A stretch of 51,676 nt of DNA, taken from Bacteroides sp. Lineage in GTDB: Bacteria; Bacteroidota; Bacteroidia; Bacteroidales; Bacteroidaceae. Positions 17,237 to 32,320 of this stretch are shown piece after piece. The notes under the pieces were generated by a model. It was not told where the DNA came from and made no database searches. It worked only from the letters and a program-made list of their open reading frames with translations. Where the stretch lies: the NCBI GenBank assembly GCA_017621035.1, contig JAGATY010000018.1, positions 1 through 51,676 of the forward strand, written 5' to 3'. The stretch's first letter is position 1, and each line of letters opens with the position of its first letter. The position numbers were made by a program, and so were the translations under genes.

Positions 17237-18355
17237 TCAGGGCGACGGTGTTGTGGAGGGGCTGATGCTGAGCGTCAGGGGGTGGCGGGTGCCGGGCTTC
17301 AGGGTGAGGCCGGTGCCGGCCGAGGTGTCCGTACCGCTGGTGAAGGGGAGGTCGAGGGTGAAGGTCACAGCACTCTCTCCCGTGCCGCACTGCATCACGG
17401 CTTTGAAGCCGGTGAGCTTGTAGGTGCTGTCTGCCCAGACGATGGCTTGCAGGTACCCGGTGCTGTTGATGGTGACTTTGGTAAGGGGGGAATATGAAAT
17501 AGTACTTCCATCATTTACTACAGCCCAGAGGGTGGCGAGTGTGGGGTTGGTGTACTCCTTATCGTCGACGAAGTAGGTACCTTGGGCAACCGTTACACCT
17601 GCTACGGGGAGGCGGAGCAGAGCGTACCGATGCTTCAAGTTGACGGTCATGGCTCCGAGGGTGGGACTGTTGATATCGGTGTCCACAGTGACAATGCCGT
17701 CACCGGCGGCTATGTTTTCGGCATCGGCGGAAGCTGAGAGTTGATCGCTCTCTATTATGGAATTCGCTTGGGGAACATCTCCCTGCACCACGCCCATAGC
17801 CTCGGCAATGGCAGCATAGTTTTCATCATCATCAGACACATCTCCATCAGACATATTGACAAATCCTATGTAAAGGTCCTCCCACTTTTCCCCTTCGGCA
17901 GGACGGATGGTGATGGAAGTGCCGTTCTTATCCTGAACGTCCCAGCCTGTCGTAGTCTTGACAAAGCAGGCGGAAAGGCCATTGCTTCCATCGAAACCTC
18001 CCTTAAAGTTGTATTCCATATTCAGCTTATCGCCCACCTCGAATCCGGTGATGGTGCGGTTATAGGGATAGGTGTGTGATGCCGTTTCCTCATACGCCAC
18101 GCGGGTGGCCGGGCTTCTGCCGTCGATGGTGACGGAGGCGATGTGGAGAGAGTTGCTCGGGCTCGGCTCGATGCTCTCGCTCTCGCAAGAGTACAGAGCG
18201 AGGGAGAGAGTACAGAGTACAGAGAACAGAGTACAGAGTGTCATCCACCGTAGGGGCAGGGTCTGCCTGCCCTTGTTGGCGGTGACGTGGATGTGTTCGG
18301 GCGGGCGAACCCCGCCCCTACCGTTATATGTATTTATTGTCTTCATTGTTTTCAT
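17237..18355 (-). CDS. Fimbrillin-family lipoprotein with repeat-derived leader
   Basis: From residue about 75 this is a fimbrillin (Mfa_like) protein: RVAYEETASHTYPYNRTITGFEVGDKL, then YIGFVNMSDGDVSD, LKHRYALLRLPVAGV and a C-terminal LTLKPGTRHPLTLSISPS strand. The lipobox is LALYSC, followed by the ESESIEPS tag shared with two neighbours. The 372-residue frame begins MKTMKTINTYN and then reads through a palindromic intergenic-type element (18245-18322) before the hydrophobic core CTLFSVLCTLSLALYSC, which is encoded by a 7-bp repeat. An internal Met (MTLCTLFSV) could be an alternative start. The listed start lies 37 bp after the previous stop, as expected within an operon. Confidence 0.75.
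   Translation of the reverse strand: MKTMKTINTYNGRGGVRPPEHIHVTANKGRQTLPLRWMTLCTLFSVLCTLSLALYSCESESIEPSPSNSLHIASVTIDGRSPATRVAYEETASHTYPYNRTITGFEVGDKLNMEYNFKGGFDGSNGLSACFVKTTTGWDVQDKNGTSITIRPAEGEKWEDLYIGFVNMSDGDVSDDDENYAAIAEAMGVVQGDVPQANSIIESDQLSASADAENIAAGDGIVTVDTDINSPTLGAMTVNLKHRYALLRLPVAGVTVAQGTYFVDDKEYTNPTLATLWAVVNDGSTISYSPLTKVTINSTGYLQAIVWADSTYKLTGFKAVMQCGTGESAVTFTLDLPFTSGTDTSAGTGLTLKPGTRHPLTLSISPSTTPSP
18191..18240 (-). repeat. Degenerate 7-bp tandem repeat (ACAGAGT type), in frame
   Basis: Five to six recognisable heptamers (ACAGAGT/ACAGAGA on the plus strand) lie inside the signal-peptide region of the fimbrillin at 17237-18355. On the coding strand they give the hydrophobic LFSVLCT cycle. 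Confidence 0.85.
18245..18322. repeat. GC-rich palindromic element, GGGGCAGGGTCTGCC type
   Basis: GGGGCAGG...CCTGCCC and GGGCGGGCGAACCCCGCCCC inverted repeats lie at the two ends. A longer relative is at 21650-21812. Here the element lies in frame in the 5' part of a fimbrillin ORF. Confidence 0.8.
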
Positions 18356-18392
18356 TGTTTACGCGTTAATACCAATTTTATTCGCTTCACTT

Positions 18393-19577
18393 TCAACTTT
18401 CAACTTCCCCGATGTTTATCTCACCGCCTTCCGACCAGTTGCCGATGCTGACGGCATCCTGGCTGAGGTTGATGATGCGCTCGATGCCCAGGGTGATGGT
18501 GAAGGTGTAGAACTTGCCGGCTTCCAGCTTCAGCGTACCGGAGTAGTTTACGGTCCAGGTGAAGAGTTCGCCTTTGGGGACGTAGTTCCGGGCATCATCG
18601 CTCCACTCGAAGCCGTCGGGGCTGTGGTGGATGGTGAAGAGCGTCCACGGGGCGGTGGGGGTGACGGGGGACAGCTCGCCGCGACCGTCCGGGATTACCT
18701 CCGTCAGCGTGGCGGGATAGGTGCCGGGGGTGAAGCCGCCTCTGACTTCTGCAGGCGAATACAGTTGGTCGTCAAACTCGCTCAAGATTATCGGGTCGTT
18801 CTTGCCCATGGGGTACTTCTTGATGTCCTCATCATACCAATAGTCGTTGAAGCTACACAGCCCGTCGTAAGAGCATAGGTAGCTGAGGTCGAAGCTACTA
18901 ACCGTGATGTCCTCTCCGTTGGCATCCTTCAGCTTCACCTGCACGGCGGCGGTCATGGGCGTGAGGGGTGCGCCGGGGGTGAAAGTACCCTCCTCGTCCA
19001 CGGTGATGTAACCACGGTAGCCGTAGCGGGCATTGATGATGCCGGGCATGGTGTCGGTCTTTTTGAAAACGGCCCAGGCGGTGATGCCGGCATAGTACTG
19101 GCCGGGGCCGTTCTGCACCACGGGGGCATTGCTGGGTGTAGTACTCCATTGGGACACGGTGAAAGAATAATACCCGCTGTTCTCTCCCTGCTGATTGCCC
19201 TCTGCATCCAGCATATAAAGATTGATGGCGGCATTGTCCACCGCACTGCCCTGTGCTCCTATCACCGAGCGGCTGGTGGCACTTGCGGTCACTTCGCCCA
19301 GCTCAATGCGGGGGGTGGTGAGGGTGATGGGGGCGTAGCTCGGCTCGATGCTCTCGCTCGTGCAAGAGTACAGAGTACAGAGTACAGAGAACAGAGTAGC
19401 CATGCGGAGTGTTGCTATCACGGCTCCCCTCCTTCTGGAAGGAGGGGTGGCACGCAGTGACGGGGTGGTAGGTAGGCTCGCGTTTTCACCTACCACCTCC
19501 CCCTTCGGGTACTCCTCCTTCCGGAAGGAGGAGAGCTGAGTTACTATAGTATTCATATTCTTTTTCATATCGTTCAT
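18393..19577 (-). CDS. Fimbrillin-family lipoprotein with repeat-derived leader
   Basis: The mature part has fimbrillin traits: SATSRSVIGAQGSAVDNAAINLYMLDAEG, AWAVFKKTDTMPGI, and a C-terminal GKFYTFTITLGIERIINLSQDAVSIGNW that matches the last strands of Mfa-like domains. The lipobox is LYSC, followed by TSESIEPS. The 394-residue frame starts MNDMKKNMNTIVTQ and then reads through a full palindromic element (19422-19544) encoding a Pro/Arg-rich stretch. The heptamer-encoded core LFSVLCTLYSC follows. The start codon lies 3 bp after the upstream stop, which supports its use; an internal Met (MATLFSVLC) is the alternative. Without the element the gene would encode an ordinary lipoprotein. Confidence 0.75.
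   Translation of the reverse strand: MNDMKKNMNTIVTQLSSFRKEEYPKGEVVGENASLPTTPSLRATPPSRRRGAVIATLRMATLFSVLCTLYSCTSESIEPSYAPITLTTPRIELGEVTASATSRSVIGAQGSAVDNAAINLYMLDAEGNQQGENSGYYSFTVSQWSTTPSNAPVVQNGPGQYYAGITAWAVFKKTDTMPGIINARYGYRGYITVDEEGTFTPGAPLTPMTAAVQVKLKDANGEDITVSSFDLSYLCSYDGLCSFNDYWYDEDIKKYPMGKNDPIILSEFDDQLYSPAEVRGGFTPGTYPATLTEVIPDGRGELSPVTPTAPWTLFTIHHSPDGFEWSDDARNYVPKGELFTWTVNYSGTLKLEAGKFYTFTITLGIERIINLSQDAVSIGNWSEGGEINIGEVES
19367..19399 (-). repeat. Degenerate 7-bp tandem repeat (ACAGAGT type), in frame
   Basis: About four heptamers encode the LFSVLCT hydrophobic core of the lipoprotein signal sequence in the gene at 18393-19577. Confidence 0.85.
19422..19544. repeat. Palindromic element A, copy 1 (in coding frame)
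   Basis: Three nested palindromes make up this 123-bp element: CCCCTCC/GGAGGGG, GGTGGTAGGT/ACCTACCACC and CTCCTCC/GGAGGAG. Copies 2 and 3 lie at 22719-22850 and 25318-25440 and are nearly identical outside a short variable centre. Confidence 0.88.
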
Positions 19578-19580
19578 AGT

Positions 19581-21833
19581 TTATTCGTTAGTACTTGGGG
19601 TGATGATGATTTCTTTCCAGACGCAGCCGGCCCAGGTGCGATCGGTTTCCGAGGCATCGGGGGCGGCGGCGGTCACGTCATTGTCGGTGAGTACGCCCCA
19701 AAAGTCCAGCATCTTCTGCCCTTCGGCGAGGGTGAGGGTGCAGGTTGTAGTGCTGGCATTCTCGAACGTATTCCCGACCACGCTCGTCAGCACCGAGCCG
19801 AAGGTAAGGCCGGTAAGGGCGGTGCAGCTGCCGAAAGTATACCCCTCTACCGTGGTGACCAAGGGCAGGCTCACGGTGCTGAGGGCGGTGCAGCCTTTGA
19901 AAACATACTTCCCTATCGAGGTGGCCGCAGGCAGCTCTATGCCGGTGAGGGCGGTGCAGTCTTCGAAAACATTATCCCCTATCGTGGTGGCCTTGGGCAG
20001 GCTCACGCCGGTGAGGGAGGTGCAGCTGCTAAAAGCTGTAGCTCCTATCGTGGTGGCCTTGGGCAGGCTCACGCCGGTGAGGGAGGTGCAGCTGCTAAAA
20101 GCTATAGTTCCTATCGAGGTGGCCTCGGGCAGGCTCACGCTGCTGAGGGAAGAGCAGTCGCTGAAAGTATATTGCCCTATCTTGGTGAGCTTGGGAGCCG
20201 AGACGCTACGCAAGATTGTGCAGTCTTTAAATGCCCAGTCCTGAAGCTCGGTGACATCGGGCAGGATAAGGTCGATGGAGCCGGCGGGCACTTCGCCATT
20301 CCGCACAAGGGTGGAAGAAACATCAGCGAAGCAGCTGTAAACTGCATTCACCGCCAGCGTGGTGCCCGTCACCACGAGGGCGCCACCCTTTTCAGCAGCT
20401 TCCTTAATAATAGCCTTCCACACCTCCTCATCAGTAGTTGAGCCATCCACCGTGGGCAGGGCACTCGGGTCCCCTCCCAGCGTCGCCTCGGCCTCGGTGT
20501 AGTTCCAGCTGGCCAGTTGGGCGGTGCCGGTGGCGAGGCGGTTGTGGTCCAGGGTGACGGTAATGACGTAGTGAGTTCCTAAGTTGAAAGATGAAAGTGG
20601 AAAGTTCTGTTCTGCACTTTCATCTGTCATCTTTCCACTTTCCACTTGAATGTCTTTCAGCTTCAGCGTGTAGGTGCCGGTGGTGAGGGGGCCGTCGCCG
20701 TCGGGGTCTTGCTTCACGGTGATGGTGAGCTTCTCGTCGCCGGTGAAGGAGGGGTTTTCGATGGGGAAGTAGCGCGTGGCAGAAACTCCCGGTGCCGTCT
20801 CTTCCTTCGTGTGCGTGGCGGTGGGGGGCACGATGTTGCTGAGTTCGTTGCCCTTTTCGCCGCAGTACTTCTTACTGCCGTCGGCCGACTTCATGACTTT
20901 CAAGATGTGCTTCAGCGGCTTGTCCTCATACTTAAACACCGCCAGGGCGAAGTCGTCGGAGGTGATGGCCTCGTCGGCCGCAAGGGTGGTGATGCCTTCG
21001 CCGCAATAGACGTCGAACAGCGTGCCGTTCCCCGCCTCGTCCGTCAGGTAGATGGGGGTGACAGCGGTGCGGAAGGGAAAGTGGAGAGTGTCTTCGCGGA
21101 TTTGATTGCCGTTATCGTCCAGCACGGGCACGGGGTCTCCCTGGCTGGTCACCACCCGGATGGTCACCTTGGTGCTGGCGTGTGTCAGCTCGCCATAGTC
21201 CAGCACGGGCTTGCCGTCGGCACCGGCCTCCAGGCGGGCGAAGCCGAAGAGACAGTCTGCGTCATTATTGGCTTCGAGGTATGTCCAGCGGGAGACGCAG
21301 CGGCCGTCGCCCTCCGTCAGGTTGAAGTCCTTCAGCTGCAGCTGGGAGAACGGCTCGGTGTTGGGCAGGTTCTGGATGGAGGCGCCGTAGTTGTTGAGCC
21401 ACGTTTCATCGCTTCCGCCCGGCATAGCCAGCTTCAAGGCAATACCCTCCGTTGTGAGGTGGATTTCGTTGTCGGCATAGTAGGTTTCGCTTGCGGCGCG
21501 GGTGTGGAGGGCGGAGATTTGGGCGGAGATGCTTATCGGGGTTTCGGCGGGCATTTCAGCCAGGGCGTCGCGCTGCACGCTCGGAACTACGTCCTCGCTC
21601 GTGCAAGATGAAAGTTGAAAGATGAAAGATGAAAGTAGGAGGATGACCGTCCACGGTAGGGGCAGACCGATGTGTCTGCCCGGGGTACCCATCCACGGTA
21701 GGGGCAGGGTCTGCCTGCCCTTGGCGGTGGTGTGGGTGTATTCGGGCGGGCAAACCCCGCCCCTACGGGTGTGTGCGCTATCGGGCGAACACATCGGTTC
21801 GCCCCTACGGGTACATATAAATATCTTTTTCAT
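19581..21833 (-). CDS. Fimbrillin/BspA-type LRR fusion lipoprotein
   Basis: The 750-residue frame has three parts. The first is a leader (residues 1-80) that reads MKKIFI, then a translated palindromic element, then VILLLSSFIFQLSSC ending in the lipobox Cys. The second is a fimbrillin-like region (about 90-480) with AEMPAETPISISAQI and LTITVKQDPDGDG. The third is a BspA/TpLRR solenoid (about 530-690) with six or seven 22-residue repeats of the form LTGVSLPKATTIGATAFSSCTS. A C-terminal cap WAGCVWKEIIITP resembles the cap of the paralogue at 23086. BspA repeats commonly mediate adhesion; whether this protein sits at a fimbrial tip is inference. A repeat-derived insertion also interrupts the fimbrillin part near 20581-20650. 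It starts 21 bp after the DUF6261 gene stop. Confidence 0.8.
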   Translation of the reverse strand: MKKIFICTRRGEPMCSPDSAHTRRGGVCPPEYTHTTAKGRQTLPLPWMGTPGRHIGLPLPWTVILLLSSFIFQLSSCTSEDVVPSVQRDALAEMPAETPISISAQISALHTRAASETYYADNEIHLTTEGIALKLAMPGGSDETWLNNYGASIQNLPNTEPFSQLQLKDFNLTEGDGRCVSRWTYLEANNDADCLFGFARLEAGADGKPVLDYGELTHASTKVTIRVVTSQGDPVPVLDDNGNQIREDTLHFPFRTAVTPIYLTDEAGNGTLFDVYCGEGITTLAADEAITSDDFALAVFKYEDKPLKHILKVMKSADGSKKYCGEKGNELSNIVPPTATHTKEETAPGVSATRYFPIENPSFTGDEKLTITVKQDPDGDGPLTTGTYTLKLKDIQVESGKMTDESAEQNFPLSSFNLGTHYVITVTLDHNRLATGTAQLASWNYTEAEATLGGDPSALPTVDGSTTDEEVWKAIIKEAAEKGGALVVTGTTLAVNAVYSCFADVSSTLVRNGEVPAGSIDLILPDVTELQDWAFKDCTILRSVSAPKLTKIGQYTFSDCSSLSSVSLPEATSIGTIAFSSCTSLTGVSLPKATTIGATAFSSCTSLTGVSLPKATTIGDNVFEDCTALTGIELPAATSIGKYVFKGCTALSTVSLPLVTTVEGYTFGSCTALTGLTFGSVLTSVVGNTFENASTTTCTLTLAEGQKMLDFWGVLTDNDVTAAAPDASETDRTWAGCVWKEIIITPSTNE
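19813..20240 (-). repeat. 66-bp LRR-encoding tandem repeats
   Basis: About six to seven units of 66 bp encode the BspA repeats of the fusion protein. Adjacent units near 19980-20100 are almost identical, which points to recent duplication. Confidence 0.8.
20581..20650. repeat. Inverted heptamer repeat inside a coding region
   Basis: GAAAGATG and AAAGTG pair with CACTTT and CATCTTTC further right. The sequence is the same GAAAGAT heptamer family that fills non-coding DNA elsewhere in the window. It adds roughly 20 residues (SGKMTDESAEQNFPLSSFNL) to the fimbrillin domain. Confidence 0.75.
21607..21638 (-). repeat. Degenerate 7-bp tandem repeat (GAAAGAT type), in frame
   Basis: Four and a half heptamers (GAAAGTT, GAAAGAT, GAAAGAT, GAAAGTA) encode the lipoprotein core LLSSFIFQLSSC of the gene at 19581-21833. 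This family differs in sequence from the ACAGAGT family used by three neighbours. Confidence 0.85.
21650..21812. repeat. Compound GC-rich palindromic element (in coding frame)
   Basis: Two GGTAGGGGCAG half-elements (about 21655 and 21697) and two GGGCGAAC/CCCGCCCC ends form a compound version of the element at 18245-18322. It is read in frame between MKKIFI and the hydrophobic core. Confidence 0.8.
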
Positions 21834-21854
21834 AACTATCCTTTCCTTTATAAG

Positions 21855-22664
21855 TTATTCAATCGTGATGCCTTCGTCGCTGGAGGTGCTGTCGCCGTCC
21901 GTGGTGGTGCTGCTGTCGCCGGTGGTGGTGTCCTCGGTCTTGGTGGAGGAGGACTTGCCGGTATTGGCAGCGATGGTGCGATACGTTTCCACAATACCGT
22001 TCAGCTCCGTGATGAAGGTGGTGAGCGTGTCGGTGGGCTGGATGAGGGCGTAGGCGTTCATCAGCTGCACCATCTCGTTGTAGAGGTTGTCGCAGGCCAG
22101 GCGGGCGTCGTCGGAGCTGATGTCGCTCTTGGGGGCGCGGGTGGCCACTTCGGCGGTCTTCTTGTCGAACTCCACGGAGAACTGTGCGTTGGCCAGGGCC
22201 AGCTGTTCCACCTCGGTGGTGAGGCCCAGCAGGGCGATGTACTTGGCGCCGTCGGTGGTGCTGAGGGCGGTGACGAGGCCGTTCACTTCGCTGGTCTGGC
22301 GGCTGTATTCGTGGGCGGCGATGCCCTTGTAGGGGGCGATGACGGCGCTGAGGTAGTTGTATGCTTCGGCTTTCTCGGCGATGGGGTTGTAGGCGTGTGC
22401 CTGCACCACGCTGTTGACGACGCCCAGCAGGTGGTCGCGCGTCTTGTCGGCCTGCTTCATTATTTCGGTGGCCACAAAGGTGGTTTCGCGCTTCACCAGC
22501 GAAGCTTCCACGGCCACGGCCTCGGCATACTGTGCGGCCTGGGTGGCGACGTGCAGTTCTTCGGCACCGGTGGCGGTGATGAGGTTGTTCACGCGGGTAT
22601 GAAAGTCACTGTGTGAGCCAAGAGTGAGCTGGCTCATCGGAAGAGAATTGATTGTTGTAGCCAT
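21855..22664 (-). CDS. DUF6261 family protein
   Basis: This 269-residue protein begins MATTINSLPMSQLTLGSHSDFHTRVNNLI. The FHTRVNNLI motif, KRETTFVATEIMKQADKTRD, HAYNPIAEKAEAYNYLSAVIAPYKGIAAHEYSRQTSEV and the GLTTEVEQL segment are in the order I know from DUF6261, a Bacteroidales helical family of unknown function. The C-terminus is an Asp/Ser/Thr-rich tail. There is no signal peptide, which is odd inside a surface-structure cluster. The frame extends upstream to 22802 through a palindromic element, but the ATG at 22664 begins the conserved part. It is GC-rich like its neighbours and lies 21 bp upstream of a fimbrillin/LRR gene. Confidence 0.8.
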   Translation of the reverse strand: MATTINSLPMSQLTLGSHSDFHTRVNNLITATGAEELHVATQAAQYAEAVAVEASLVKRETTFVATEIMKQADKTRDHLLGVVNSVVQAHAYNPIAEKAEAYNYLSAVIAPYKGIAAHEYSRQTSEVNGLVTALSTTDGAKYIALLGLTTEVEQLALANAQFSVEFDKKTAEVATRAPKSDISSDDARLACDNLYNEMVQLMNAYALIQPTDTLTTFITELNGIVETYRTIAANTGKSSSTKTEDTTTGDSSTTTDGDSTSSDEGITIE

Positions 22665-22718
22665 ATGCTTTTGATTTTTGATTTCTGATTTCTGATTTAT
22701 TGTTTCTATTTGGGTTGC

Positions 22719-22850
22719 GGCTCCCCTCCTTCGGGAAGGAGGGGTGGCACGCAGTGACGGGGTGGTAGGTAGAGTGGCACGGTGTGTGTGTTCACCTACC
22801 ACCTCCCCCTACGGGTACTCCTCCTTCCCGAAGGAGGAGAGCTGAGTTAC
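22719..22850. repeat. Palindromic element A, copy 2 (non-coding)
   Basis: This copy is almost the same as 19422-19544 and 25318-25440, but it lies in a 5' leader rather than in a coding frame. The start of the reading frame extends through it, yet the gene has its own ATG further on. Confidence 0.88.
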
Positions 22851-22974
22851 ACCCCCCCTGTGAGGCCGACCAAGGGGTTGGTCGGGGCAAACACCCCCCC
22901 CTGTGAGGCCGACCAAGGGGTTGGCCGAGGCAAACACCCCCCCCTGTTTGACCCGGCCAAGGGGTTGGTCGCCC
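22849..22974. repeat. GC-rich 42-43 bp tandem repeat, three units
   Basis: Units begin ACACCCCCCC at 22849, 22891 and 22934 and each contains CCAAGGGGTTGG, itself a palindrome. The third unit is diverged. Related CAAGGGGTTGG sequences continue to about 23020. Confidence 0.85.
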
Positions 22975-23085
22975 TTCTTGGGGGGGTCGGTCGGGGGTAG
23001 CAAGGGGTTGGCCGCCCTTTCCGGGGGGGGTGCTTGGGGTTTCAAAGGGGTTTCTCTGCTTCATGGGGTGGAGTTTTGGGGGTTA

Positions 23086-25503
23086 TTACTGCGTGGAGAA
23101 TTTGATTTCCTGCCAGGTGTTGCCGGCCCATTCTTTGTTTTCGCCTTCCTCGGCTGGATAGTCGGTGCTGTCAGCCTGCCCTGGGTTCAGGGTGAGGGTG
23201 CAGGTCGAGGTGCTGGCGTTATTGAACGGACTGCTGCCCACGCTCGTCACCACCGAACCGAAGGTCACGCTGGTGAGGCCGGTGCAGCCGTTGAAAGCTT
23301 CCTTCCCTATCGTGGTGGCCACAGGCAGATTCACGCTGCTGAGGGCGGTGCAGTAGTAGAAAGCAGACTGTCCTATCGAGGTGGCCGCAGGCAGCTCTAT
23401 GCCGGTGAGGCCGGTGCAGCCGCCGAAAGCTTCCTTCCCTATCGTGGTGGCCACAGGCAGATTCACGCTGCTGAGGGCGGTGCAGTTGGCGAAAGCAGAC
23501 TGTCCTATCGAGGTGGCCGCAGGCAGCTCTATGCCGGTGAGGCTGGTGCAGCCGTTGAAAGCAGAGTGTACTATCTCGGTGGCCGCAGGCAGATTCACGC
23601 TGCTGAGGGCGGTGCAGTAGTAGAAAGCACTGCTCGCTATCGAGGTGGCCGCAGGCAGGCTGATGCCGGTGAGGCCGGTGCAGCTGTAGAAAGCATTGTT
23701 CCCTATCGAGGTGGCCGCTTGCAGGGTCACGGTGGTGAGGCCGGTGCAGTTGGCGAAAGCAGACATCCCTATCGTGGTGGCCTTGGGCAGGTTCACGCTT
23801 TTGAGATTGGTGCATTTGGCGAAAGCAGATTGTCCTATCTCGGTGGCCGCAGGCAGCTCTATGCCGGCGAGGCCGGTGCAAGCTTGGAAAGCCTGCTGCC
23901 CTACCGTCTCGACCTTGGGAGCCGAGACGCTCCGCAAGATTGGGCAGCTGTTGAAAGCGTCTTCCGGCAGCGCGGTGGCGTCGGGCAGGATGAGGTCGAT
24001 GGAGCCGGCGGGCGCTATACTGCTATCGAAATATACTTTTCCCGTTATGTTGTCGCCCGTCAGCACGAGGGATACGCCCCTGTCGTAGGCGGCTTGGGTG
24101 GCGAAATCCAGTGCATTTAGATTGGCGGCATCCAGCGTAATGTTTCCGTCGCTGTCCACATACACAATGTTGCGCCACGTCTTGCCCGCCCAGGTGTTGC
24201 CGCTGACGGGCCAGGTGGTGTCCGTAGCAAACGCTTCGGGCAGCGTGAGGTCGACGTTCTCGGTGGGGAAATCCACCACGATTTCAAGTGTATTGTCCTT
24301 GGCGTAGGCATCGAGCCAGGCCTGCAGGCCGTAGCGGTTGGTCACGGTGTAGGTCTTGCCGTCGGCAGAGATGGTGTATCCCGGGTTGGTGGTTCCGCCC
24401 AGCTCGGCGGTGTAGTCGGTGGTGGCGGCGGCGGTGAAGTCGGTAATCTCGATGCTTCCCGGCTTGTCCAGCTGGGTGAGGGAGAGGCGGACGGTGAGGG
24501 TGAGGCTCTGTCCGGCCGGGAACTCATTGGCCTTCCGCCCCGTGGCGCTGCCGTCCTGGTTCAGCACGTCCACGGTGCTGAGGTCCAGCGTCCAGGTCTT
24601 GTTATACTCCTCGGCCTCGATGGTGAGGGTGGCATCGGCCAGTGTTTGCGGGGCGAGGTAGAAACAGACTCCATCTTCGATGTTCACGGTTTCTGCCGCC
24701 CCACCTGTAGTGGGCCATTCGAGCTGGGTGACGTCGGCAGTCTCGGCCGCCGGCACCACTTTCATGGTGGCGGTGAAGGTGGGGTATTCCTCGAAGTTAT
24801 GCTCCGACTCTACCACCAGCCAGAACGCAGCCTTGCGGTAGGCCATCTGTCCGAAGGCGATTTCGCTGCCATGCGCGGCCGTGGCGGTGGCCCACATGGG
24901 CACTCCGTCGTTGCTTTCGGCCGTGAGGTAGAAGGTGCAGTTGTCTTCCTTGGCCACCTGCCCCCACAGCAGGTTCTCGGCAGCGTTCTCGCTTCCCCAC
25001 GAGGTGGTGAAGGAGAAGGTGCCGTCGATGGAGTTGCCGGTGATGTTCTCATCGGGCACGGTGCATTCGGCCAGTTCATTGGTCTTGGCGGCGGTGTAGT
25101 GCAGGGTGAGTCCGGTGGCAGCCTGCGGCATGGCGCGGGTGAGGGTGGCAAGGTTCTTGGGCATTTCGGCGGTGGCGGTGATGGCTTCGCCACTCATGCT
25201 CGGCTCGATTCTCTCGCTGTCGCAGGAGGAGAGAGTACAGAGTACAGAGAACAGAGTACAGAGAACGGAGAACGGAGTACAGAGAACAGAGAACAGAGTA
25301 CAGCGTGATGCTATCTCGGCTCCCCTCCTTCTGGAAGGAGGGGTGGCACGCAGTGACGGGGTGGTAGGTAAGCTCGCGTTTTCACCTACCACCTCCCCCT
25401 TCGGGTACTCCTCCTTCCCGAAGGAGGAGAGTCGTGTTACCATCTGCCTCCCCGTTAGGGCTGGGGAGGAGTTTATAAATGTATATTTCGTCATTGCTTT
25501 CAT
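23086..25503 (-). CDS. Fimbrillin/BspA-type LRR fusion lipoprotein
   Basis: This 805-residue frame begins MKAMTKYTF and reads through two palindromic elements and about nine heptamers, encoding CTLFSVLCTPFSVLCTLFSV, to the lipobox LSSC at about residue 95. A DSERIEPS tag follows. A fimbrillin-like region (about 95-480) comes next, then a BspA/TpLRR solenoid (about 525-770) with ten or eleven 22-residue repeats such as LTGIELPAATSIGQSAFANC, and a cap WAGNTWQEIKF. Unlike its paralogues it has no ATG, GTG or TTG between the element and the hydrophobic core, so a secreted product requires translation through the element. The first ATG lies 43 bp after the upstream gene's stop. The likely role is adhesion. 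Confidence 0.8.
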   Translation of the reverse strand: MKAMTKYTFINSSPALTGRQMVTRLSSFGKEEYPKGEVVGENASLPTTPSLRATPPSRRRGAEIASRCTLFSVLCTPFSVLCTLFSVLCTLSSCDSERIEPSMSGEAITATAEMPKNLATLTRAMPQAATGLTLHYTAAKTNELAECTVPDENITGNSIDGTFSFTTSWGSENAAENLLWGQVAKEDNCTFYLTAESNDGVPMWATATAAHGSEIAFGQMAYRKAAFWLVVESEHNFEEYPTFTATMKVVPAAETADVTQLEWPTTGGAAETVNIEDGVCFYLAPQTLADATLTIEAEEYNKTWTLDLSTVDVLNQDGSATGRKANEFPAGQSLTLTVRLSLTQLDKPGSIEITDFTAAATTDYTAELGGTTNPGYTISADGKTYTVTNRYGLQAWLDAYAKDNTLEIVVDFPTENVDLTLPEAFATDTTWPVSGNTWAGKTWRNIVYVDSDGNITLDAANLNALDFATQAAYDRGVSLVLTGDNITGKVYFDSSIAPAGSIDLILPDATALPEDAFNSCPILRSVSAPKVETVGQQAFQACTGLAGIELPAATEIGQSAFAKCTNLKSVNLPKATTIGMSAFANCTGLTTVTLQAATSIGNNAFYSCTGLTGISLPAATSIASSAFYYCTALSSVNLPAATEIVHSAFNGCTSLTGIELPAATSIGQSAFANCTALSSVNLPVATTIGKEAFGGCTGLTGIELPAATSIGQSAFYYCTALSSVNLPVATTIGKEAFNGCTGLTSVTFGSVVTSVGSSPFNNASTSTCTLTLNPGQADSTDYPAEEGENKEWAGNTWQEIKFSTQ
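23255..23930 (-). repeat. 66/132-bp LRR-encoding tandem repeats
   Basis: About ten 66-bp units occur. Several alternate in pairs, so that a 132-bp block (ELPAATSIGQSAF with NLPVATTIGKEAF) recurs almost unchanged near 23300-23520. Such blocks can expand or contract by recombination without shifting the frame. Confidence 0.85.
25229..25304 (-). repeat. Longest 7-bp tandem array (ACAGAGT type), in frame
   Basis: Nine full heptamers, ACAGAGT, ACAGAGA or ACGGAGA/T, run from 25236. They encode the hydrophobic signal core of the gene at 23086-25503 as repeats of LFSVLCT. Confidence 0.9.
25318..25440. repeat. Palindromic element A, copy 3 (in coding frame)
   Basis: This copy has the same three nested palindromes as copies 1 and 2. 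It is read in frame as a Pro/Arg-rich stretch (ATPPSRRRG) of the 23086-25503 ORF, and another palindrome (CTCCCCGTTAGGGCTGGGGAG, at about 25447) lies immediately before it. Confidence 0.88.
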
Positions 25504-25546: not shown

Positions 25547-28520
25547 TTATTCCGCCCAGTCGGGAGTCATGCTGCCCGAGCCGTTTACCGTTGTCCAATC
25601 GGCGATTTCGGCCTTGATGCCTACGCTGGTTTCGCTGACGGTGAGGGTGATGGCGTAGTGCTTGCCGGCCTCCACCTTGCCGCCGGTGAAGAGGGCGGCG
25701 GTGCCGTTCATCAGCTCACTGAGCTTCACGGTGTAAGTGTTGCCGTTACTGCGTGTCAGCGTGATGACATTGGCATCGGTCAGGGTTTGCGGGGCGAAGT
25801 GCATCGCGGCGTCGGCAATGGTGTATGTCTCGCTGCCCAAGGCGATGGTCTTGGTGAAGGCGGCTACCTCGGCATCGGTAATGGAGGCGCCGTCGCCCTT
25901 GAAGGTGAAACTCATCTTGGCGGTGGTGTGGCTGAGGGTGAAGCTCAGCTCGCTGCCGTAGGTGGCTCCGGTGAGGGTGCCGGTGAGCTTGTCTTCCACG
26001 GGCGTGGTCTTGGTGGCGAAGATGTACTCGGCCGAGAAGGTGCCGGTGAAGGTGTTCTTGGCGATGTCGTCCCAGTAGAGCGGTGCGTTGCTGGCCCATG
26101 CGCCGGCGGTGTAGGTGTAGGTGGCGGTGAGGTCGGTGCCGTAGGCGATGGTGAGCCGGTCGCCCTCGGCAGCGGTGATGCTGACGGTGCCGTCGGTGAT
26201 TCCGGCCAGCTTCACTTCGGCGGAAGCAGCGGCGGTGCCCCAATCAGTTACGGTAGTCTTGATGCCTGCGGCGGTGGGCTTCAGCGTCAGGGTGAGGGTG
26301 GTGTTCTTTCCGGCCTCCAGGGTCACGGCCTCGGCCAGTGCGGCCTCGTAGGTGTTGCCGTTACTCAGCTTCACGGAGAAGACGCTTCCGGCGGCGATGG
26401 TCTGCGGCACTACGAGGTGAGCCTCTTCATCGGCGATGGTGTAGGTGGTGGTTTCGGTGCCGGCCGCAAAGTAGAGCAGGCCGTCGGCATCGGTGTTCAT
26501 CCTGGCGCTCTTGGCCAGGGCGGGCGTGGTGACGGTGGCTCCGGCGAGGTCAGGCGTGAAGCCCGCGCCCTTGGCCGTCTTCACGGTGAGCTGTGCCAGT
26601 GCGTGGCGGAACTCGATGGCTGCCGCTCCGCCCTTGATGGCAACGGGGCCGGCCACGAGCGCATCCTTCAGTCCGGTCACTTCGTCCAGGATGTCAGCGC
26701 CCTCGGCATCGGTGTTGTAGACGTTGGCGTAGACCACGGCCGTGGCGGGCAGCTCGTCCAGGTAGATGGGGTTCGTGCTCTTCCATGCGCCGTCGGCATA
26801 CTCATACGCGTAGGTGGTTCCCAGCCGCGCGCCGGAAGTGGCACTGCTGAAGTTCTTCACCGGTGCCTCCGCCAGCTGCAGGCTGAGGGCAGTGAAGGTG
26901 GGGGCGCTGCCTTGCGGGGTGTCGGGGGTGCCGGTGATTACCAATGCCAGCTGGGCAGAAGCCTCGGTTCCCGTCTCCCACTCCTTCACGCTGAGGGCGA
27001 TGGCGGTAGCGGTGGGGTCGAGGGTCAGGGCCAGCGTGTTGGTAGTGCCCTGTTTCAGTTCCACGGCCTCGGCCAAGGTGGTGCGGTAGCTGTTGCCATT
27101 CTTCAGGTTGACGGTGACGGCCGTTCCGGCGGCCAGTGTCTGCGGTACTATTATATAAGGTGTAGCGGCGGAGAGGGTCAACGTCTTGGCATCGCCCGTG
27201 GCGGTGGTCACGTTGGCGTCGTCGAACTCAGCTTCCGGCTTCACGCCCGGCAGGGTGATGGTGGCTCCCTCCAGCGATACGCTCTCGGGGAAGTTCGTGC
27301 CGTGTGCCACGGTGATGTTCAGCCGTGCCATCAGGTGCTCCAGGGTGAGGGCGATGCCGCCATCCTTCACAGCCACACCGGTGGTGTTGCCCAGTACGTC
27401 GGCCAAGCCCGTCACGGCATCGGTAGCCTCGGGGGTGTGGCGGGCAAAGAAGAGGGCATCTTCTTTCAGACCCTCCAAATAGAAAGGAGTTGTTGTGTTC
27501 CATGCTTCGGCAGTGGCATCCCAGGTGTAGGTTACTTTGGCATCTGCCTTGTCGGCCAACCAGAGCTGAAGGCTTTCCACTTCTGCAAGGTTGCCGTCTG
27601 TGCCGGCGGTGGTCAGCTTCAGACTTTCCAGGTCGACAGTCACACCGGTGGTCCAGTCTTCAACCGAAGCTTCCACGGTGGCCTCGGTGCGGTTGAGGTG
27701 TACCTTCAGCGTGTTCTTGGTGCCGGCTTTCAGCGCCATGCCGGCGGTGAAAGGTACGTCGAAGGCATACTCGCCGGCGGTGATGACCAACTTCACATCC
27801 TTGGCATCACCCGGCAGCACGATGGCCGTACCGGAGAGCGTGTTGGAAGTGGCGTTGTGGTTCACCGGAATGGCGATGGCCTTTACCGAAGAGGCATCGG
27901 TGGTAAGTGTGGCGGCAATCAGGTCCCACGTAGCAGTGGTAGCTGTTCCGTGCAGAGCAACAGCAGCCTTGGAGAGGTCTACTCCCTCGGCCGACTCGTT
28001 GCAGTCTACAGTAAGCTCCAGCTTCACCAACTTGTGGCGGAAGGCGAGCGATACCTCGGCATCGGTGGCACTCTTGTCCGTCACCTTGTCGGCCACCATC
28101 AGGTCGATGGCAGCGAGCTTGGTTTGGTCGGATACGTTGACGGGAACCACGGTCTCACCGGTCAGTTCGGTGTAGGGATAGAAGGCAACGATGTCTGCCT
28201 TCTTGTTCTGCGTGGGATAGTAGAGGGTGTTGGCCTTGTCGGCAGGGGCAAAGGCTCCGGTGCCGTCGGCGGTTACATACTTGCCGGCCAAGGGATTGCC
28301 GGTGACGGTGGTCGTACTGCCTGCCTCCAGCATGGTGATGCCGATGGCATCTCCCGCTTCCCAGGCATTGTCGGTGGCACGGGTAACTGTACGTCCGGCG
28401 ATGGTGGTGTTACTTACTGTGAGGGCGGTGCGACCGTTGTCCTCCATTCTCATTGCTTTCGCTACATGCTGCCAAGGTTATGAACGCTGTGGCTGCCCAG
28501 AATAATCTTGTGGCCTTCAT
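25547..28520 (-). pseudogene. Four-domain fimbrillin lipoprotein, frameshifted after the signal peptide
   Basis: The body frame (to 28453) encodes 968 residues without a signal peptide. It holds an Mfa_like/fimbrillin domain with RATDNAWEAGDAIGI (about residues 1-275) and three further related domains (about 275-505, 505-740 and 740-968). Each ends in a KQGTTNTLALTLDPT- or EAGKHYAITLTVSE-like strand followed by a WETG- or WTTV-like motif. Directly upstream, in another frame, an ATG at 28520 opens a perfect lipoprotein signal, MKATRLFWAATAFITLAAC-SESNE. One extra A near 28448 separates the two; removing it gives SESNEMEDNGR, continuous with the body. The gene is thus one base away from an intact first gene of the cluster. 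It may be a true mutation, an off-state or an assembly error. Confidence 0.8.
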
Positions 28521-29456: not shown

Positions 29457-29509
29457 GGTTATTTGAGTTTTACAAGCTCAACTTTCAGTAGTCAAGGAGT
29501 TAAAGGATG

Positions 29510-29670
29510 AATGAAGAATTAAGAATTAAGAATGATGAATTAAGAATTCAACTTTATTCGCTTACGCTCATCAGCTTCGCAGTCATCTTTCAACTATCAA
29601 CTATCAACTATCATCTTTCATCTTTCATCTTTCAACTATCAACTATCAACTATCATCTTTCAACTATCAA
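29510..29670. repeat. Mixed 7-bp tandem repeat arrays
   Basis: GAATTAA-type heptamers (29514-29550) are followed by the motif GCTCATCAGCTTCGCAGTCA (29566-29585), then a long run of CAACTAT, CATCTTT and CAACTAT heptamers to about 29670. The arrays are non-coding here. Confidence 0.85.
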
Positions 29671-29896
29671 CTATTTTAAGTATTGGCCTTTATCTACCCA
29701 AAGAACGAAGCGATATCTCCATTTAACTCCTTTATCTCCATAGAGTTTCACTTGCGAAACTTAAATCATAAATATTAACATATTGCATTAGATAGTTGGA
29801 ACAAAGAGATAAAATATTGCTCAGAAACATTTTATTGCTTTTAAAAGATAGTTTTCTGATAATTAGATTTATAACTTGTTTTTGTGTCATGGAATT

Positions 29897-30024: not shown

Positions 30025-30084
30025 CAGCCATCTATTCACTTTCAAAGTTAGTTGCGCTTGCGAAACATATTAAAACAACAAGAT

Positions 30085-32232
30085 ATGAAACACACATTTT
30101 TCCTTTTTCTGGCTTTGCCGCTGTTGCAGGCTTGTACTTCGGCAGATAAGCGTATCTCGTCGCTCTCGGTAGACGAATTGGCCGTCAGTGTTACGGCAGA
30201 TGAAAATCGAGAATACTCCTATACCGACAAGAAGGCCGGTTATTGGTATGGACGTACCCATCAGGATGAACCCACCGACTGGTATGCCGGCTGGAATCAG
30301 GCCAAACGACGTCTGCTTTCCGACTATGCACTGGCGGTAGACGAAAAGCCTCTGTTGCGTCGTGAGGCAGAAGTTATCGTATCACCGCACAGCCTGACAC
30401 GTAGGTGGGGTGGGATAGAGGAACAGTTACTGTTGGTAGATGACATGCCTTTGCTGCTGGTGCAGTTGCTGGCTCCCGAGGCAGACACTATTTCGCTGAC
30501 GCTGAACGAAACCCTCTTGGAACGTGTCACTCCACAGGCCGACGCCCTCTGTTGTATTCCGACGGAGTCACCTGCCGAAATCATCAAACTGGTGCCTCTG
30601 AAAGCAATGCCTGTTGCAACAACCGGAAACACGATGAAAGTGTCGGCTCTGGCCGAAGGCTTTCTGCTGGCTTATGGCAGCGAGGAGGAGTGCGATGCCC
30701 TCATTACCCGTTTCCGTACCGAGAAGGATGTCCTATTGGCCTCCCGTAAGGAACGTATGAACAGCCTGATACAGGAGAACAATCCGCTGAAGAGTAATCT
30801 CCCAGAGCTGGATCGCTCATTGGCATGGATTACACTCACCATGGATCAGTTGATTACCGAACAGCAAGGCAAGGGCATCTATGCCGGACTGCCTTGGTTT
30901 AACGAATATTGGGGGCGCGACATGTTCATAGCCATGCCCGGCGCCACACTGGTAACCGGACAGTTTGACTATACCAAAGAGATTCTGAAAGACTTTGCCA
31001 AGCTGCAAGACACTGACCCGGCTTCGGAAACCTGTGGACGCATACCTAATCGCGCCAATTTGGAAAACATTCTCTATAACACCACAGACGGTACACCCCG
31101 TTATGTAATCGAGGCAGAAGAACTGCTGGCCTATTCGGGTGACCGTAGCTTCTTGAAAGATATCTATCCCTCGGTAGTGCTCAGCATCGACAAGAGTATA
31201 GAGAATTACACCGACGAGAAAGGTTATCTGCTTCATGCCGATGCAGATACCTGGATGGATGTAAAACGCAACGGCATCCCCGGTTCACCTCGTGGCAATC
31301 GTGCTAACGACATTCAGTATCTCTGGTACAAGCAACTGACTGCTGGTGCCCATCTGGCTAAACTGATGGACGATGCTGCCCATGCCGAAGCTTGGCTGAA
31401 GGTGGCCAATCGCTTGGCACAGAACTTTGAGACTGATTACTGTGATAAGGAGAATATCTTGATTTACGACCACCTGAATGCTGACGGCACTCCGGATTTG
31501 CAGTTCCGTCCCAATCAGCTCTTCTGTTTTGAACTGATTAAGGATGAAACCTTCAAGCAAAAGGTAACCCGTCGCGTGTGGGAAGAACTGGTCTATCCGT
31601 GGGGTGTGGCCTCGCTGGCACAGTGGGACTTGCAGTTTCACCCGCAACACGAGAACTGGCACTACTATCACAAGGATGATGCCTATCATAACGGAACCAT
31701 CTGGCTCTGGAACAACGGTATAGCCATGCAACGCATGATAGAGTATGGCGAGGTGGAGACGGCATGGAAACTCTTCTGCAACATGAATCGTCAGGCTTTG
31801 CACGAAGGAGCAGTGGGTAGCCTGAGTGAAAATGCTGATGCTCATCCACGGGAAGGAAAGCAGTGGGTGAACCGCTCGGGTACCTTCTTGCAAGCATGGA
31901 GTAACTCGGAACAGTTGCGCGTGTGGTATCAATACTTCTTAGGCATTCGTCCGGATCTGATGAATGGCCGTGTGATAGTGGAACCCAAACTTCCGGCAGC
32001 CATTACCGAACTGGAAACTTCGGTGAAGATAGGAGAGGGTACACTGACTTATATATATAAAAAAGGTGTATTTGATATTCGCCTGCAGGGAGTGGAGGCG
32101 GAGTTGAAGGTAATATTGCCTACAGAACATCAGGCTAACCCTATCTTTGAGGGTGTGGATTTCTGTACTCCTCGTCCCTTGGAGAAATATCCCTGCTTCA
32201 ACACCTATTATGAAGTGGCGTTGAGTTACTAG
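30085..32232 (+). CDS. Amylo-alpha-1,6-glucosidase-like (GH133/GDE C-terminal type) lipoprotein
   Basis: The protein is related to the glucosidase part of glycogen-debranching enzyme, an (alpha/alpha)6 barrel hydrolysing alpha-1,6 branch glucose. The ATG at 30085 starts a lipoprotein signal MKHTFFLFLALPLLQAC (Cys17); the frame is open a little further upstream. An N-terminal beta-sandwich (about residues 25-235) precedes the catalytic barrel, with GLPWFNEYWGRDMFIAMPG, GRIPNRANLENILYNT, HADADTWMDVKRNG and YHNGTIWLWNNGIAMQRM in the expected order. Lipidation suggests a periplasmic or surface role in glycan breakdown rather than cytosolic glycogen turnover. It is monocistronic; its stop codon is followed at once by heptamer repeats. 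Confidence 0.85.
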   Translation: MKHTFFLFLALPLLQACTSADKRISSLSVDELAVSVTADENREYSYTDKKAGYWYGRTHQDEPTDWYAGWNQAKRRLLSDYALAVDEKPLLRREAEVIVSPHSLTRRWGGIEEQLLLVDDMPLLLVQLLAPEADTISLTLNETLLERVTPQADALCCIPTESPAEIIKLVPLKAMPVATTGNTMKVSALAEGFLLAYGSEEECDALITRFRTEKDVLLASRKERMNSLIQENNPLKSNLPELDRSLAWITLTMDQLITEQQGKGIYAGLPWFNEYWGRDMFIAMPGATLVTGQFDYTKEILKDFAKLQDTDPASETCGRIPNRANLENILYNTTDGTPRYVIEAEELLAYSGDRSFLKDIYPSVVLSIDKSIENYTDEKGYLLHADADTWMDVKRNGIPGSPRGNRANDIQYLWYKQLTAGAHLAKLMDDAAHAEAWLKVANRLAQNFETDYCDKENILIYDHLNADGTPDLQFRPNQLFCFELIKDETFKQKVTRRVWEELVYPWGVASLAQWDLQFHPQHENWHYYHKDDAYHNGTIWLWNNGIAMQRMIEYGEVETAWKLFCNMNRQALHEGAVGSLSENADAHPREGKQWVNRSGTFLQAWSNSEQLRVWYQYFLGIRPDLMNGRVIVEPKLPAAITELETSVKIGEGTLTYIYKKGVFDIRLQGVEAELKVILPTEHQANPIFEGVDFCTPRPLEKYPCFNTYYEVALSY

Positions 32233-32320
32233 TGGAAAGTGGAAAGATGAAAGTGGAAAGATGAAAGTTGAAAGTTGAAAGAGGAAAGTGATTTGCTTCA
32301 CTCATCAGCTTCGCAGTCAT
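32232..32320 (+). repeat. 7-bp tandem array followed by CTCATCAGCTTCGCAGTC motif
   Basis: Eight heptamers (GTGGAAA, GATGAAA, GTTGAAA, GAGGAAA) start at the stop codon of the GH133-like gene, and CTCATCAGCTTCGCAGTCAT follows at 32301-32320. The same two-part arrangement occurs near 13986-14050 and 29510-29586. Confidence 0.85.

Follow-up and report, generated by a model that had tools for sequence, protein, structure and literature searches.

The DNA analysed here is contig JAGATY010000018.1 of Bacteroides sp. (assembly GCA_017621035.1), a stretch of 51,676 nucleotides (nt) that is called the window below and that makes up the whole of contig C44 of a draft genome (2.64 Mb, 93 contigs, 91% complete). 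It was found that tandem repeats of 7 base pairs (bp) encode the hydrophobic core of the predicted signal peptides of four lipoprotein genes in a fimbrillin/BspA-type surface-protein cluster of this window. A rule-based scan recognised a basic n-region, a hydrophobic core and a lipobox cysteine (Cys) in all four products. The genes are as follows.

17237..18355, minus strand: P0001, a predicted lipoprotein of 372 amino acids (aa), lipobox Cys at codon 57, no Pfam family.
18393..19577, minus strand: P0002, a 394-aa predicted lipoprotein, Cys at codon 72, with a match to Mfa_like_1 below the cut-off only (E 0.023).
19581..21833, minus strand: P0003, a 750-aa lipoprotein with BspA-type leucine-rich repeats (PF13306), Cys at codon 77.
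23086..25503, minus strand: P0004, an 805-aa lipoprotein with BspA-type leucine-rich repeats (PF13306), Cys at codon 94.

Repeat arrays were detected by self-comparison of the window at lags 2-24 with a threshold of 16. Among the short lags (2-13), 7 alone forms arrays, eight in number, and lags 2-6 and 8-13 give none; the remaining hits have lags of 14, 21, 18, 22 and 23 bp. Four of the eight heptamer arrays lie inside the open reading frames (ORFs) of P0001-P0004, directly before the lipobox Cys.

18207..18239, minus strand: ACAGAGT-type array whose coding strand writes TLCTLFSVLCTL in the P0001 signal peptide.
19365..19396, minus strand: ACAGAGT-type array that writes TLFSVLCTLYS ahead of the P0002 lipobox Cys (codon 72).
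21605..21635, minus strand: GAAAGAT-type array that writes LSSFIFQLSSC and reaches the P0003 lipobox Cys (codon 77).
25232..25303, minus strand: ACAGAGT-type array of about 10 degenerate units that writes RCTLFSVLCTPFSVLCTLFSVLCTL ahead of the P0004 lipobox Cys (codon 94).

Half of the arrays are thus in signal peptides, whereas the seven lipoprotein signal regions of the window (about 66 bp each) make up only about 0.9% of its length; the four arrays are not independent, as their leaders share sequence. On the coding strand all four are open in three frames and write hydrophobic variants of LFSVLCT or LSSFIFQ. This indifference to frame is simple arithmetic: 7 is not divisible by 3, and an array of heptamers without stops gives one peptide cycle in all frames, as does every stop-free repeat with a unit length that three does not divide. 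The lack of stops on the pyrimidine-rich strand, and its richness in Leu, Phe, Ser and Val, do not follow automatically. The ACAGAGT arrays are stop-free on the other strand too, except for a single TAG on the border of the P0002 stretch, and the GAAAGAT array has several stops on its purine-rich other strand. An earlier note on this DNA had claimed that heptamers encode the signal-peptide core of four neighbouring lipoprotein ORFs with three frames open on the coding strand, and this was borne out with some changes of detail. The frames are indeed open, but the same heptapeptide cycle does not recur in each of them; the units are degenerate and the three frames give similar, non-identical cycles (LYSVLCT beside LFSVLCT). 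The first array, placed at 18191-18240 in that note, is periodic at 18207-18239, and 18191-18206 falls outside the periodic stretch. The four genes belong to the same cluster but are not all adjacent, since P0003 and P0004 are separated by a DUF6261 gene (ATG at 22664).

It was revealed that a palindromic element stands between the start codon and the array in each leader.

19421..19544, minus strand: element A in the P0002 leader, 96% identical to the P0004 copy.
25315..25440, minus strand: element A in the P0004 leader, whose best full-length match is the P0002 copy (96%) and whose next is 86%.
18245..18330, minus strand: element B in the P0001 leader, one of only two copies found in the genome.
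21693..21766, minus strand: element B in the P0003 leader, 88% identical to the P0001 copy.

Element A gave 35 matches, several copies being counted in both orientations, and it is in frame in P0002 and P0004. All four leaders, 56-93 codons long, have the same order of native-looking start, palindromic element, array and lipobox. The starts read MKTMKTIN in P0001, MNDMKKNMN in P0002, MKKIFI in P0003 and MKAMTKYTFI in P0004, and they lie 37, 3, 21 and 43 nt, respectively, after the upstream stop, which for P0002 is the stop of P0003. In P0003, AAAGGAAAGGA precedes the ATG. In each of the four genes, the upstream ATG is in frame with the protein body across both the element and the array.

It might be argued that these upstream ATGs are unused, that the palindromes are 5′ untranslated DNA and that the proteins start at internal codons beside the arrays. 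Possible starts do exist 19 codons before the Cys in P0001, 19 and 13 codons before it in P0002 and 29 codons before it in P0003, and at two loci of genome_contigs (L229 and L262) an array lies, as judged by eye, just before an apparent lipoprotein start. P0004 has no such start: there is no ATG, GTG or TTG between codon 38, which is inside the element, and Cys 94, and therefore any such start of this gene reads through the array. Four ATGs in frame across unequal inserts would occur by chance in 1 of 81 cases if they were unconstrained and independent, although the shared leader sequence makes their independence doubtful. The arrays of P0001, P0002 and P0003 would still encode the core if translation began internally. 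Overall, I regard internal initiation in place of the upstream ATGs as quite improbable.

The similarity among the four genes continues a short way beyond the leader. In ungapped comparisons of all six gene pairs, identity is 63-87% over the first 30 nt from the Cys and 30-38% over the following 60 nt. The leaders are also mosaic: P0002 and P0004 have element A in common and P0001 and P0003 element B, whereas three of the four arrays are of the ACAGAGT type and one is of the GAAAGAT type. The pattern suggests a cassette whose end lies some 10 codons past the lipobox Cys and that has been exchanged between otherwise unlike genes.

The reading I favour, with a probability of about 0.6, is that repeat DNA invaded the 5′ ends of these genes and supplied a new hydrophobic core, and that the resulting cassette spread among neighbours. 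The arrays would represent one variety of a repeat that is spread through the genome and has degenerate heptamer tracts, and such tracts, together with element A or B, would have entered the 5′ ends of lipoprotein genes in the surface-protein cluster. Translation would run from the native ATG through the palindromic element, now part of the leader, and through the array to the original lipobox Cys. The pyrimidine-rich strand of the array, which gives mainly Leu, Phe, Ser, Val, Cys and Thr, would serve as the core of a lipoprotein signal, and leader repeats may have been tolerated since they can act in this way. The cassette would then have been copied or recombined among neighbouring genes.

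Are such arrays common elsewhere in the genome? A 626-kb sample of the same genome was composed of 37 stretches, namely 20 contig starts picked by number and 17 further places on contigs with known arrays or elements, at positions avoiding those already seen (the case on contig C6 described below included); with this bias, the sample may understate both how dense the arrays are and how often they fall in signal peptides. The sample holds 19 arrays, of which 17 are intergenic, one is at the 3′ end of a gene, one is in a doubtful 123-aa ORF and none is in a signal peptide. At a stricter threshold, lag 7 gave 15 arrays and was the commonest lag below 14 (0-3 arrays at each of the other lags from 4 to 13); the 37 arrays at lag 22 come from another repeat. 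In another set of own-genome stretches, chosen partly for arrays, 68 of the 84 distinct arrays are intergenic; in this set a long antisense ORF causes the P0004 array to be labelled N-terminal. Tandem 7-nt units therefore exceed other short periods in the window and the sample, and they are mostly intergenic in the sample and in this set. At least three arrays start in the last codons of a gene and supply its stop (KLKVES, ELKVES and EKVES); the C-terminal end of P0002 is GEVES. The other four arrays of the window, and a repeated sequence beside two of them, are as follows.

22669..22698, plus strand: GATTTCT-type array just upstream of the ATG of the DUF6261 gene (22664), adjoining a copy of element A at 22718-22850.
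29509..29548: intergenic array.
29557..29584, plus strand: 28-bp repeated core between the two intergenic arrays.
29583..29674: intergenic array.
32231..32288, plus strand: GAAAGAT-type array that starts at the end of the 30052-32232 ORF and lies outside likely coding sequence.

The 28-bp core, TTCGCTTACGCTCATCAGCTTCGCAGTC, occurs at 19 places in the genome (29557-29584 and 18 others, L357-L375). A scored array lies directly 3′ of the core in 8 of the 18 distinct copies judged, as against 11 of 2,974 random positions, and the heptamer unit of these tails varies between copies; L372 was scored on the core of L359, and these two count as one copy. The core with its variable heptamer tails looks like an interspersed element. 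Since arrays lie directly behind core copies, many of them are a component of an interspersed repeat and not merely products of local slippage. The core was found in none of 157 congeners at up to 3 mismatches. The earlier note was right that the same kinds of arrays occur in non-coding DNA, in the window as in the sample. Its GAAAGAT-family array at 32231-32288 stands, while the region 29510-29670, assigned to the same family, consists of two arrays of other families (GAATTAA; TCAACTA/TCATCTT) that flank the repeated core. That note did not mention the array at 22669-22698, the palindromic elements of the leaders, their common cassette or the association of arrays with the repeated core.

Several other repeats were seen. 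Three DUF6261 genes (PF19775; 21855-22664 in the window, L091 688-1581 and L108 712-1509) have heptamer arrays at a border or, for L091, within the 3′ part of the gene. The gap that separates the DUF6261 gene of the window from P0004 contains, at 22852-23052, tandem repeats of 43 bp in which C and G form runs. Within the P0003 coding region, an inverted pair of GAAAG-type heptamer tracts at 20581-20647 reads QVESGKMTDESAEQNFPLSSFNLG, a hairpin-like repeat in the middle of the protein.

A fifth case was found on another contig. At C6:38799 lies the gene of P0007, an Mfa2/DUF6562 lipoprotein with its Cys at codon 58. Its native-looking start is followed by a 25-bp stretch with a period of 8 (NTETQRHRE), then by a GAAAG-type array (TFIFHLSTF) and the lipobox. 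The 25-bp stretch has 16 further matches in nine other stretches of the genome, and the array, with a score of 13, is missed at the threshold used for the set of 84. Thus, the order of start, interspersed repeat, array and lipobox exists at two places with different repeats. In the sample, which avoided the array places already seen, none of the 63 rule-called lipoproteins has an array in its signal peptide; with the seven of the window, the scan called 70 in all. Nor was an array found in the leader of any of the 12 other Mfa-like genes with a readable start (Cys at codons 16-32); a 13th, on contig C20, has an unreadable start. The wider occurrence that the earlier note asked about was thus not seen in these genes; P0007 is the one further case.

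The first gene of the surface-protein cluster (25547-28453, Mfa_like_1) has an ordinary leader from 28520, MKATRLFWAATAFITLAAC, and no array. Its leader frame stops near 28410, 17 codons past the Cys, and its body is in another frame, so that the gene is broken in the assembly. A gene with leader and body in different frames, in a draft of 93 contigs and with repeats that are hard to assemble, could mean that the repeats of the whole locus were collapsed or misjoined. The four lipoprotein ORFs are open through differing combinations of element and array, with two array families, and P0007 lies on another contig. An assembly artefact thus seems highly improbable.

Beyond this genome, the genus comparison set consisted of 158 species genomes (157 congeners and the own genome), the own species being represented by a single draft assembly. 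The ACAGAG family was found within the genus in the own genome only (0 of 157 congeners) and, among the matches listed, in many other phyla. The GAAAG family has 39 hits in the own genome, 1-9 in nine congeners and none in 148; the built-in backward control of this search is useless because GAAAG reads identically backwards. In wider bacteria there are at least 270 arrays in at least 148 loci (119 from genome_contigs and 29, partly overlapping or belonging to the own genome, from the genus search). A lipobox filter on these left, among the matches listed, 19 rows from 15 loci, and by eye only one of those listed, L207 from a Rickettsiales metagenome-assembled genome (P0006, no Pfam family), has the array as a plausible core. 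At L281 1497-1531, in a congener (G157), the longest ORF of a radical SAM gene (PF04055) opens with codons supplied by a heptamer array, MNFQLSTFNFQL. A scan of genome_contigs with P0003 showed no relative, and plasmids gave no match for 17237-19600. Among viral_contigs, six 18-mer hits all lacked arrays within 200 bp, and the core had no hits. Rfam gave one tRNA only in the window at gathering scores.

Could the arrays be switches, as the earlier note inferred? Slippage by 7 bp would toggle each lipoprotein while the hydrophobic core is kept in every frame, as with the CTCTT repeats of Neisseria opa, which offer a precedent. In favour of switching, the length of the unit cannot be divided by three, all frames are open and hydrophobic, the genes encode fimbrillin/BspA-type surface proteins, and out-of-frame reading of the four genes would stop 5-54 codons from the Cys. 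On the other hand, the longest perfect tract of the four arrays is 18-25 bp (2.6-3.6 units) and the units are mixed, and mixed repeat units normally damp slippage. All four genes are in frame in the assembly, and most arrays of the genome sit where no frame can switch. I consider such contingency switching unlikely. A broader form, in which a recombining cassette of palindromic element and heptamer array would switch several surface lipoproteins independently by 7-bp steps, is likewise rather doubtful; it would amount to an opa-like system built on heptamers, with interspersed repeats as the source of ready-made hydrophobic, stop-free tracts. Slippage may nevertheless change the array lengths, without an established role. 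If lengths do vary in populations, slippage-based switching of surface lipoproteins would be added to Bacteroides, for which the mechanism named in the part of a review consulted here is invertase-mediated (PMC11868660).

Several points weigh against recruitment of repeat DNA into the leaders. An empty site was not found: P0001 matches none of 98 other genus genomes, and a segment search of the 158 genomes, with two candidates scored in each, gave beyond the own contig mainly pieces of element A and weak matches to the protein bodies. A sister locus may thus have been missed, and the insertion stays an inference. The internal ATGs or GTGs of P0001, P0002 and P0003, 13-29 codons before the Cys, would allow a shorter signal peptide. 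The four cores are weakly hydrophobic, at ranks 5, 7, 9 and 11 from the bottom of the 70 lipoproteins. The ACAGAGT arrays were never seen with the 28-bp core and may not be tails of that repeat. A Y1 transposase might have moved the palindromes, and no Y1_Tnp match was found in the 91%-complete draft, while the control search gave matches in 5 of 14 genomes. The evidence on the locus comes from a single draft assembly.

If repeat recruitment is accepted, the locus shows in legible form how repeat DNA became what is probably a functional part of a protein. Pyrimidine-rich heptamers can lack stops and be hydrophobic in all frames, which makes the signal-peptide core one of the few coding sites that could take up such repeats without destroying the gene. 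No literature on heptamers in Bacteroides signal peptides was found by title or abstract start within the terms used. Heptamer repeats, palindromes in ORFs and leader repeats are each known; the literature searched, as far as the excerpts of it go, showed no case of the three together in lipoprotein leaders.

The opa repeat writes a hydrophobic core in all frames, and repeats of this type form a long pure tract of identical units. As described in the excerpts cited, the opa genes of Neisseria carry CTCTT pentamers in the leader-coding region of surface proteins and switch at about 1e-3 per cell per generation (PMC3745409, PMC3960869). The arrays reported here likewise repeat in tandem a unit that is not a multiple of 3 bp, lie in the signal-peptide coding region and are open and hydrophobic in every frame. 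They differ in their short, degenerate 7-bp units, in perfect tracts of 18-25 bp instead of a long pure one and in predicted lipoproteins as the products, and switching is a feature of opa.

Another comparison is with heptanucleotide repeats, which in Calothrix are known as STRR. The heptanucleotide LSSR of bacteria are tandem, mostly intergenic and patchy between species, at least in the portions of the reports used here (PMC4679880, PMC4692102), and TAACTGA repeats occur in Beggiatoaceae, Cyanobacteria and some Bacteroidetes (PMC4679880). According to the same portions, MacGregor (2015) pointed out that one strand of TAACTGA gives stops while the other reads LSVISYQ over and over without a stop, which a protein could tolerate at either of its ends (PMC4679880). 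The present arrays resemble LSSR and STRR in their 7-nt tandem units and mostly intergenic positions. In contrast, several unit families coexist in this genome and some arrays follow a 28-bp core, and heptamers that write signal-peptide cores are not described for LSSR in those portions.

Finally, the Rickettsia palindromic elements (RPE) and in-frame miniature inverted-repeat transposable elements are, in the excerpt cited, palindromic repeats in frame in protein-coding genes (PMC10969869). Element A in P0002 and P0004 is similarly a multi-copy palindrome in frame within ORFs. Unlike RPE, the elements described here lie in the leader ahead of the lipobox, and thus the mature protein would be untouched.

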